Source of the DNA: Novosphingobium sp. KA1
Lineage (GTDB): Bacteria > Pseudomonadota > Alphaproteobacteria > Sphingomonadales > Sphingomonadaceae
Direction: 5' to 3'
DNA: 64,000 nt
Assembly: GCF_017309955.1 (NCBI RefSeq)
Contig: NZ_CP021248.1
Coordinates: 1,585,001 to 1,649,000 of the forward strand
Shown piece after piece: positions 24,486 to 29,904 of this stretch. How positions within the stretch are numbered: the first letter of the stretch is position 1; the number at the start of each line of letters is the position of its first letter. The translations under genes were made by a program, and so were the position numbers. Under the pieces are notes generated by a model. It ran no database searches and was not told the origin of the DNA. It saw only the letters and a list, made by a program, of their open reading frames with translations.

Positions 24486-24516
24486 AAGGGGGAGGCCGGT
24501 CCAGGCACTCCCCCTT
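24486..24516. terminator. Terminator-like hairpin, A-run on one side
   Basis: A 9-bp stem AAGGGGGAG/CTCCCCCTT with a 13-nt loop. The run of A before it makes a T-tract when read on the minus strand; on the plus strand only TT follows. It probably ends the small gene at 24452. Confidence 0.6.
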
Positions 24517-24640
24517 GCCATTTCACCGGACCCGCAGCGGCGTCCGAACGGACGATTGCAATATTATAGCTTTACTTATCGGCCGTTCGCGCGGAAGGAA
24601 CGATACCTGCTGTCCAAAATGGTATTCGGGAGCTTCACCG

Positions 24641-25684
24641 ATGTCTGACAACGATCAACCGGAACTGGCACGCCTCACCGTAGAATTGCTGAGCGCCTAC
24701 TTCGCCAACAACAGTGTCCCCAGCAGCGAGCTGCCCAGCCTGATCGAAGCCACAAGGACCGCGCTGCGCGGCGCGCCTGCGCCCGGCGAGGAGGTGATCG
24801 AGACTTACGTCGCCGCCGTCACGATCGAGGAAAGCCTGGCTTCGCCGCAGCACATCCTCAGCATGATCGACGGCAAGGGTTACAAGACGCTCAAGCGGCA
24901 TCTGTCGAACAACGGTCTCACGCCCGAGCAATACAAGGCGCGCTACAACCTGCCCGCCGACTATCCTCTCGTCGCCCCGGACTATTCCGTATTGCGCCGC
25001 AACTTTGCCCGCAAGCTCGGTCTTGGCGGACGTCCGGCAGAGGCGGCAACGCCCGCCATCGCGGCAAAGCCTGCCAGCAAGGCGCCTGCCAAGGCTGCGA
25101 CCACCAAGGCGCCGGCCACCGAAACTCCGCCTACCGAAACTCTGGCCGAGAAAGCTCCGGCGGCAAAAGCGCAGGCCGCCAAGCCTGCCCGCAAGGTGAC
25201 TGCCAAGAAGGCCGCCGCCCCGGCTGCCGCCGCCGCCAAGGACAGCCCGGCGCCCGCGATCGCCTCGGCCCCGGCGGTTGCCGCGGTTGCCACCCCCGCC
25301 AAGGCTGCGCCCGCGACAGGCGGCGCCAAGAAGCCCCGCCGCATGGCCCGGCCCGCTTCGCCGCCATCCACGCCGGCCAAGGCCGCCGCCGCCAAGGCTG
25401 CGCCCGCCAAGACCGCTGCAACCAAGTCCAAACCCACTCCGGCCAAGGCTGCTGCCGCCAAGCCCCAAAGCGCCAAACCCAAGAACGCCAAGGCCGCGCC
25501 CAAGGACAAGCCCGTGGCTCCCGCAGCCAGGCAGGCGACGCCCGCGGAAAAGAAGGCTCCGGCCAAGGCAGCGGCAAAAGCAGGCGCCAAGGCCAAGCCG
25601 GATGCGACCAGGACCGCCAAGGAAAAGCCCGCCGCAAAGCCGGCCGCAAAACCAGCTGCGAGCAGCCCGGCCCCTGACGCGTAA
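24641..25684 (+). CDS. Ros/MucR-type regulator lacking zinc ligands, fused to a histone-H1-like tail
   Basis: Residues 1-130 are a Ros/MucR protein: N-terminal LARLTVELLSAYFANNSVP, then the DNA-binding fold GKGYKTLKRHLSNNGLTPEQY, YNLPADYPLVAPDYS and RKLGLGG. In Ros the zinc ligands are Cys-Cys-His-His. Here the aligned positions are Ser74, Asp77, His87 and Asn/Gly, so three of four are gone. Residues 131-347 are a low-complexity tail of Ala, Lys and Pro (repeats like AKAAAAKAAPAKTA), as in histone H1-like nucleoid proteins. Family role: MucR binds AT-rich sites and oligomerises to silence or regulate genes. The tail suggests DNA compaction (inference). ATG at 24641; a longer upstream frame reads through non-MucR sequence. 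Confidence 0.85.
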   Translation: MSDNDQPELARLTVELLSAYFANNSVPSSELPSLIEATRTALRGAPAPGEEVIETYVAAVTIEESLASPQHILSMIDGKGYKTLKRHLSNNGLTPEQYKARYNLPADYPLVAPDYSVLRRNFARKLGLGGRPAEAATPAIAAKPASKAPAKAATTKAPATETPPTETLAEKAPAAKAQAAKPARKVTAKKAAAPAAAAAKDSPAPAIASAPAVAAVATPAKAAPATGGAKKPRRMARPASPPSTPAKAAAAKAAPAKTAATKSKPTPAKAAAAKPQSAKPKNAKAAPKDKPVAPAARQATPAEKKAPAKAAAKAGAKAKPDATRTAKEKPAAKPAAKPAASSPAPDA

Positions 25685-29082: not shown

Positions 29083-29146
29083 CTAGGCTCAGGACCCATT
29101 GATTGGCAGAGGGCGATGTGATTCAGGCTCCGCGAGGAGACTGAGC

Positions 29147-29494
29147 ATGAGCGACCTGTATTGGCTGACGGAGGAGCAGATGGCGCGTCTGTCGCCTTAT
29201 TTCCCCAAGAGCCATGGCAAACCCCGGGTTGATGACCGGCGGGTGCTGAGCGGGATCATCTTCGTCAACCGCAACGGCCTGCGCTGGCGAGATGCGCCCA
29301 GGGAATATGGTCCGCACAAGACATTGTATAACCGCTGGAAACGGTGGGGCGCGATGGGAGTGTTCACCCGAATGATGGAGGGCCTGTCTGCCAAGAAGGC
29401 TGAGCCTCAGACCGTCATGATCGATGCAACCTATCTGAAGGCTCACCGCACGGCTTCCAGCCTTGGGGTAAAAAAGGGGATCTCGGCCGTCTGA
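29147..29494 (+). CDS. IS5-family transposase, OrfA part
   Basis: A 115-residue N-terminal transposase part (MSDLYWLTEEQMARLSPYFP..., GLRWRDAPREYGPHKTLYNRW) ending with the first catalytic aspartate in VMIDATYLKAHRTASSL. It stops 15 bases after the slippery AAAAAAG run at 29470-29476. A -1 slip there joins it to the second frame. GAGGAGA precedes the ATG. Confidence 0.88.
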   Translation: MSDLYWLTEEQMARLSPYFPKSHGKPRVDDRRVLSGIIFVNRNGLRWRDAPREYGPHKTLYNRWKRWGAMGVFTRMMEGLSAKKAEPQTVMIDATYLKAHRTASSLGVKKGISAV

Positions 29495-29514: not shown

Positions 29515-29904
29515 ATGAATACCAAGCTTCACGCCGTCACGGATGCCAACGGCCGCCCCTTGAGCTTCTTCATCACGGCCGGCCAGGTGAGCGATTACAC
29601 CGGCGCGGCAGCCCTGCTCGATGATCTGCCCAAGGCGCAGTGGATGCTGGCTGACCGGGGCTATGACGCCGAGTGGTTCAGGGACGCGCTCGAGCGAAAG
29701 GGCATCAAGCCTTGCATTCCTGGCCGAAAATCTCGTTATTTTCCCGTCAAATACGACAAGCGCCGGTACAAACGGCGCAACCGCATCGAGATCATGTTTG
29801 GTCGCCTGAAAGACTGGCGTCGCGTGGCAACCCGCTACGACCGCTGCCCAACCGTCTTCTTCTCCGCCCTTGCTCTCGCGGCCACCGTACTCTTCTGGCT
29901 GTGA
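29515..29904 (+). CDS. IS5-family transposase, OrfB part (C-terminal catalytic half)
   Basis: A 129-residue frame, in the -1 frame relative to OrfA. It has the second aspartate region (MLADRGYDAEWFRDAL) and the Y/R-E region (RRYKRRNRIEIMFGRLKDWRR). It is probably made as a fusion through frameshifting at the six-A run rather than alone from the GTG/ATG near 29515. Confidence 0.87.
   Translation: MNTKLHAVTDANGRPLSFFITAGQVSDYTGAAALLDDLPKAQWMLADRGYDAEWFRDALERKGIKPCIPGRKSRYFPVKYDKRRYKRRNRIEIMFGRLKDWRRVATRYDRCPTVFFSALALAATVLFWL

Follow-up and report, generated by a model that had tools for sequence, protein, structure and literature searches.

Only recently has MucR been counted among the H-NS-like proteins. 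Brucella abortus MucR and Agrobacterium Ros have an oligomerising region N-terminal to the DNA-binding domain, bind zinc and, as far as their description was accessible, lack a long tail, the constructs stopping at residue 142. Cys-Asp-His2 is an established zinc site in Ros/MucR proteins (PMC9779718, PMC5693944), and their basic C-terminal residues are described as required for DNA binding (PMC11662661). The oligomerisation triad is formed by L36, L39 and I40 in B. abortus MucR and by L34, L37 and I38 in Mesorhizobium loti Ml5 (PMC11662661). According to the same source, Ml5 carries Ser in place of the first Cys, contains no zinc and still bridges DNA, forms rings mostly of 12 protomers, and has a domain that melts at 310.7 K and is less stable than zinc-bound MucR. 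Both Ml4 and Ml5 are reported to fold and bind DNA without metal (PMC5693944), and zinc is reported to be bound via an unusual coordination sphere in S. meliloti MucR2 (PMC13297338).

Long cationic C-termini are described behind other domains. Pseudomonas AlgP and PhaF have an N-terminal domain other than Ros/MucR, followed by a long disordered Lys/Ala/Pro C-terminus with strong net positive charge; for AlgP the published account gives a net charge of +55, a disordered, KPAA-rich C-terminus of 195 aa and DNA binding by KPAA peptides (PMC9239181). Mycobacterial HupB, from a host far from sphingomonads, is a nucleoid protein with a HU domain in place of Ros/MucR and an H1-like PAKK/KAAK C-terminal domain, reported as required for nucleoid association (PMC5676037). 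Pmr (pCAR1) and Sfx (R6K), H-NS-family proteins unrelated to MucR in the accounts available, exemplify replicons with their own silencer.

The gene analyzed here, located in a window of 64,000 nucleotides (the whole stretch of DNA under study), combines traits of these systems. With Ml5 it shares the Ros/MucR domain, the Ser for the first zinc Cys and the LxxLI spacing, a likeness drawn from the published description of Ml5; it differs in its long Ala/Lys/Pro (AKP) tail, the Ml5 DNA-binding constructs described in PMC11662661 stopping at residue 149 or 154. The tail is of the kind found in AlgP, PhaF and HupB, yet only three perfect KPAA repeats are present versus 25 in AlgP (PMC9239181). The likeness to Pmr and Sfx lies in the role, which for the present group of proteins is only proposed. 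The reading favoured here, with a probability of about 0.6, is that the query protein serves as an accessory, H-NS-like silencer of the Ml5 type, its affinity for DNA being raised by a tail that resembles those of AlgP and HupB.

The family, the mode of zinc loss and the kind of tail are already known. For the combination, the clade, the plasmid traffic and the tail motifs, no paper on MucR with sphingomonads, plasmids or cationic tails was found among the matches listed; the word "sphingo" was absent from the MucR papers that were text-searched, and "MucR" from a review of silencers borne by plasmids, phages and islands. A clade without the zinc Cys, with long cationic tails and with members on sphingomonad plasmids would offer a natural way to find out how an H1-like tail alters a bacterial silencer, and whether plasmids of alphaproteobacteria, like those of Pseudomonas and enteric bacteria, bring silencers of their own.

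Gene structure and classes of relatives

Domain and tail of the 347-aa protein belong to one reading frame (Table 1), and ROS_MUCR was the only Pfam domain found by profile search, without a HU domain. Position, frame, length and family membership were thus as originally predicted, as was the basic tail: of the 216 residues past position 131, 87 are Ala, 36 Lys, 36 Pro and eight hydrophobic, and the net charge per residue is 0.15 (33/217). An alternative TTG start at 24515 (24515-25684) adds 42 residues; the ATG at 24641 agrees better with relatives. L31, L34 and I35 keep the LxxLI spacing, and the query may form oligomers.

Table 1. Features of the Ser-type Ros/MucR gene (positions in the window) and, in the last row, HIRAN-domain genes of other loci (positions in the locus named).
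Feature	Position	Strand	Description
Class B (Ser-type) Ros/MucR gene	24641..25684	+	Complete ORF, ATG at 24641, stop ends 25684, 347 aa
Ros/MucR region, residues 9-129	24665..25027	+	Pfam ROS_MUCR PF05443, 120.7 bits, cut-off 25.4
L31-P-S-L34-I35	24731..24745	+	Putative LxxLI oligomerisation triad; equivalence inferred from spacing in the sequence
S74-M-I-D77	24860..24871	+	Ser for first zinc Cys, Asp at second ligand position
LKRH87LSNN91	24890..24913	+	His retained as third ligand, Asn instead of the fourth His, loop shorter by one residue than that of Ros
Ala/Lys/Pro-rich tail, residues 131-347	25031..25681	+	Net charge +33
RRMARP motif, residues 233-238	25337..25354	+	Recurrent among class B tails
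HIRAN-domain genes	L225 8977-9396; L279 2177-2599; L281 2159-2581		

Sequences resembling the query or one of its relatives were gathered, in part under length limits, and sorted by their zinc-site residues. Those missed by the parsing rule were dropped before counting, and the 409 that could be parsed comprised 357 Ser-Asp-His, 49 Cys-Asp-His, two Cys-Cys-His and one Arg-Asp-His sequences; removal of duplicates left 311 proteins without the Cys (class B) and 46 with it (class A). The uniformity of class B is favoured by this mode of gathering. In a less selected family survey, 26 of 30 loci could be parsed (four were missed), all 26 with Ser and with tails of 13-223 residues. The two classes differ in tail length, with a median of 125 residues (13-274) in class B and 15 (5-45) in class A. 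In a midpoint-rooted tree, built on few columns from 69 rows of class B and 20 of class A and with many forks unresolved, the classes were split by one branch (support 100/98). Five short-tailed members (tails of 13-62 residues) branched off outside the main clade of class B, suggesting that loss of the zinc site preceded growth of the tail.

The same architecture occurs in other sphingomonads: in hundreds of relatives, domain and tail share one frame, and a tail encoded as a separate gene or out of frame was not seen in the homologues, among which frame-shifted tails would count as short-tailed. A frameshift or read-through join was rejected for the query. The proposed fusion to an H1-like protein, on the other hand, did not hold. 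Tail lengths are graded throughout class B, and the query tail matched no Pfam family (linker histone H1 and Hc1/HC2 included) at E values up to 10, in a search where low complexity is hard for profiles and HMMER filters discard weak matches; tail lengthening therefore fits better than gene fusion. The H1-like character stands by composition only, and AlgP of Pseudomonas is the closer likeness.

Drift, selection and motifs in the tail

The gene was DNA-identical in two near relatives, one of the same species (L036, G005) and one in the record "Sphingomonas sp. IC081 chromosome C2" (L066). In a further homologue (L038) the domain was 97% identical, while the tail was 61 residues shorter (156 vs. 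217 in the query). Such fast drift would suit an ordinary local regulator, acting on itself and a few promoters, whose tail is passive low-complexity sequence that a GC-rich genome tolerates; so would the several ROS_MUCR genes per genome (six here, 14 in one genus member), as with dispersed regulators, and the absence of either tail motif from most class B representatives. The pattern of substitution in the same pair argues against passivity. The tails differed by 33.5 synonymous changes per 128 sites vs. 33.5 non-synonymous changes per 340 sites (dN/dS 0.33; Fisher p 1.5e-5 on rounded counts), counts of both kinds being perhaps inflated by uncertain alignment of the repeats; dN/dS in the domain was 0.12. 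Moreover, a 32-residue block around RRMARP, as well as the last seven residues, was identical in both tails.

Recurrent motifs point in the same direction. Among the tails of 107 class B representatives (domain identity at most 85%), [RK][RK][MF]A[RH] occurred in 25 (mean 0.1 and maximum 1 in 200 shuffles) and [RK][KR][LI][GS][LIVAF] in 23 (mean 0.6, maximum 3), the patterns having been composed after inspection of the tails and shared descent lying outside the shuffle model. The same motifs ranked near the top in an unsupervised reduced-alphabet count of the tails. The AT-hook-like RGRK was found 18 times (shuffle mean 4.1, maximum 10), and GRP 13 times, no more than the shuffle maximum of 13. 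The dN/dS values and the motif counts above those of shuffles indicate that the tail is under some selection, mostly on composition, and the local-regulator explanation is accordingly regarded as unlikely.

A second possibility is that the tail serves as a tether or scaffold, in which the motifs would bind a partner (RNA polymerase, a partition or replication protein, or another nucleoid protein) and the AKP stretches would act as spacers. Both motif types persist where their flanks cannot be aligned, the distance between them is 29-33 residues in the seven representatives that have both, the RRMARP type may stand mid-tail or close to the extreme C-terminus, and two accessory MucRs of Cys type from the query's genome (L002, L003) also have a KKLGI-like end, all of which a tether would explain. 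It is nevertheless judged improbable: no partner is known, 82 of the 107 representatives are without the RRMARP type and 84 without the KKLGI type, the query has RRMARP and no KKLGI, and shared descent preserves part of the motif likeness.

Further observations were made on tails and tail ends. Long AKP tails containing RMAR[ED]P are also found in more divergent genes of the Ser type (L268-L270), one of which (L270, G030:C90) has a tandem KAEPKA repeat and RRMARDP in its tail. The accessory Cys-type proteins L002, L003, L275 and L276 carry KKLGV, RKLGI or KKLKV at or near their ends, like class B tails. KLGLF variants of the tail motif resemble a clamp-binding motif, a reading that was dropped because the Gln is missing. 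Large open frames of Cys-type genes from outside the family (L271-L273), considered as tails, proved to be upstream frame.

Zinc site and proposed mode of action

Residues 54-131 of the query aligned to the solved Ros domain 2jsp (E 1.6e-14), with Ser74, Asp77, His87 and then Asn90/Asn91 at the ligand positions and the two-His region one residue shorter than in Ros. The ligand assignments of the original prediction were hence confirmed, together with an altered site, while its count of a single kept ligand was too low: Asp at the second position is a normal zinc ligand in these proteins, so Asp77 is no loss and two of the four positions stay ligand-compatible. Judged from the alignment, the telling change of the site is that from Cys to Ser at the first ligand, no Cys being present there. 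Class B agrees in this respect, with Ser in 310 of 311 sequences (Arg in one) and no exception to Asp at the second position or His at the third; the fourth position is more variable (His 185, Asn 110, Arg 12, Lys 3, Gln 1). Continued metal binding by Asp77 and His87 together with further side chains, for which the invariant Asp and His, the fourth His of those 185 sequences and the unusual zinc sphere reported for S. meliloti MucR2 (PMC13297338) could be adduced, is very improbable given that Ml4 and Ml5 are described as folding and binding DNA metal-free (PMC5693944), that Ml5 has the same Cys-to-Ser change (PMC11662661) and that the fourth His of the query is also replaced, by Asn.

An accessory silencer with a DNA-binding tail remains the preferred reading. 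By comparison with its relatives, the query is likely to fold without zinc, to form rings and to bind AT-rich DNA. The N-terminal region would oligomerise and the Ros-like DNA-binding domain would keep its fold with no zinc bound; behind it would come the long cationic tail, probably disordered, and a ring would present many DNA-binding domains and equally many tails around one core. The domains would select AT-rich minor grooves, and the tails, by analogy with AlgP and HupB, would most likely contribute non-specific DNA affinity, bridging and compaction; silencing of accessory DNA is likewise the most likely function by analogy, with secondary replicons as the main target of silencing and packing. 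Net charge per residue of class B tails had a median of 0.128 and a minimum of -0.045 (n=311), and because the class includes tails with almost no net charge and tails of only 13-41 residues, its members may not have compaction by the tail in common. The AT content upstream of class B genes was 46% vs. 37% for the loci (79 loci), a difference that lacks a baseline from other genes and carries no argument.

Host genome and surroundings

The genome consists of three contigs, and the query lies on the second replicon (C2, 1,801,208 bp; C3 has 254,797 bp). A RepA-type replication gene (PF10134) at 2,893 of C2 is weak evidence for a plasmid origin, because the PF10134 match on C1 scores higher. Five of the eight HU genes of the genome are on C2. 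Profile search found six ROS_MUCR genes: L001 has a Cys-Asp-His-His site and a 16-residue tail; L002 (C3) and L003 (C2) have Cys-Cys-His sites, tails of 45 and 40 residues and K-L-G-V/I motifs at their ends; L004, L005 and the query (L006) have the Ser site and long tails, all on C2. Four of eight neighbouring ORFs matched Pfam families (glycoside hydrolase family 76, DNA-alkylation-repair-type HEAT, response regulator and TadE-like) and four did not, and the search for plasmid and HU markers gave no match within 6 kb of the query copy (L250). Two adjacent ORFs of the window (29099-29494 and 29515-29904, + strand) appear by eye to be the two halves of an IS transposase.

Distribution on chromosomes and plasmids

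With at most 10 candidates scored per genome, the class B profile (E 1e-43 or better) was matched in 52 of 397 Sphingomonadaceae genomes and 26 of 91 genera. ROS_MUCR as such was near-general in the genus (95 of 99 genomes), and class B is therefore considered accessory. Across 385 class-wide genomes, five of them Sphingomonadaceae, scores above 150 bits were reached only in the query's own genome and in G110 of the same family, whose locus was left unparsed. Copy number can be high within the genus: ROS_MUCR genes numbered 14 in G088 and 12 in G070, the latter with several copies resembling class B on a 2.25-Mb and a 720-kb contig.

In a plasmid collection, 498 records matched the query domain, and among the 60 matches listed 39 had at least 52% identity. 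A few Cys-type proteins also reach 52%, so identity alone does not separate the classes and loci were inspected singly. The 20 inspected (17 of the 39 plus H40, H41 and H43) yielded 18 parsed sequences, all with Ser and with tails of 14 to 236 residues, those of H41 and H43 (L223, L224) being unparsed. Strict confinement of class B to plasmids was ruled out by Ser-type genes in the single-contig genomes G611 and G751 (L196, L200). Cys-type variants likewise occur on plasmids, and none of 510 plasmid records was more than 80% identical to the chromosomal Cys-type L001.

A 12.4-kb stretch with a class B gene, a conjugative plasmid backbone according to plasmid typing, was 98% identical between Sphingobium sp. 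DEHP117 and several sphingomonads (Sphingopyxis and Rhizorhabdus MAGs, S. jiangsuense, pSWIT01 of R. wittichii RW1 and pSH2 of S. xenophagum) and, along 10 kb, Novosphingobium aquimarinum. Ten plasmid stretches with 8-kb flanks included an annotated ParB in five and a HU gene in four, and a fifth plasmid HU gene adjoins H14 (1.2-kb flanks). Comparison of neighbourhoods gave a clear contrast with Cys-type loci, but an exaggerated one, because the marker proteins were picked from class B plasmid neighbourhoods and the control consisted of the best-scoring Cys-type loci of the genus; any marker was nearby in 55 of 80 class B loci, many of which are near copies. General plasmid markers alone (ParB, RepA, Tra, VirB/D, PRTRC) were found near 23 of the 80 class B loci vs. 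0 of 21 Cys-type loci, and HU near 15 of 80 vs. 0 of 21. Another 17 class B loci from the genus had neither HU nor ParB nearby; among them, a strawberry-notch helicase was found at L248, DUF736 at L249, and VirD4 with a lytic transglycosylase at L258.

A broader view is that class B constitutes a replicon-level chromatin system, in which a zinc-independent MucR ring with a dozen cationic tails, spread among sphingomonads by conjugative plasmids, sometimes with a plasmid HU adjoining and with a partner recruited by the conserved tail motifs, would pack and silence accessory DNA apart from the chromosome governed by zinc-type MucR; this is put forward tentatively and considered unlikely. HU and class B mucR may possibly form a two-protein nucleoid cassette.

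The HU genes within 6 kb (15 of 80 loci) were on the same strand as mucR, 12 of them less than 1 kb upstream (L079, L088, L090, L094, L104, L109, L117, L128, L134, L135, L139 and L143) and three downstream (L129, L133 and L140). A HIRAN-domain gene directly follows class B mucR on three plasmids, pJE1, pTK2 and pEP1 (L225, L279 and L281; Table 1). Finally, a gene of Erythrobacter phage ZS04 (L227, 38668-39069), annotated as a ParB-like partition protein, matched the MucR domain with 49% identity.
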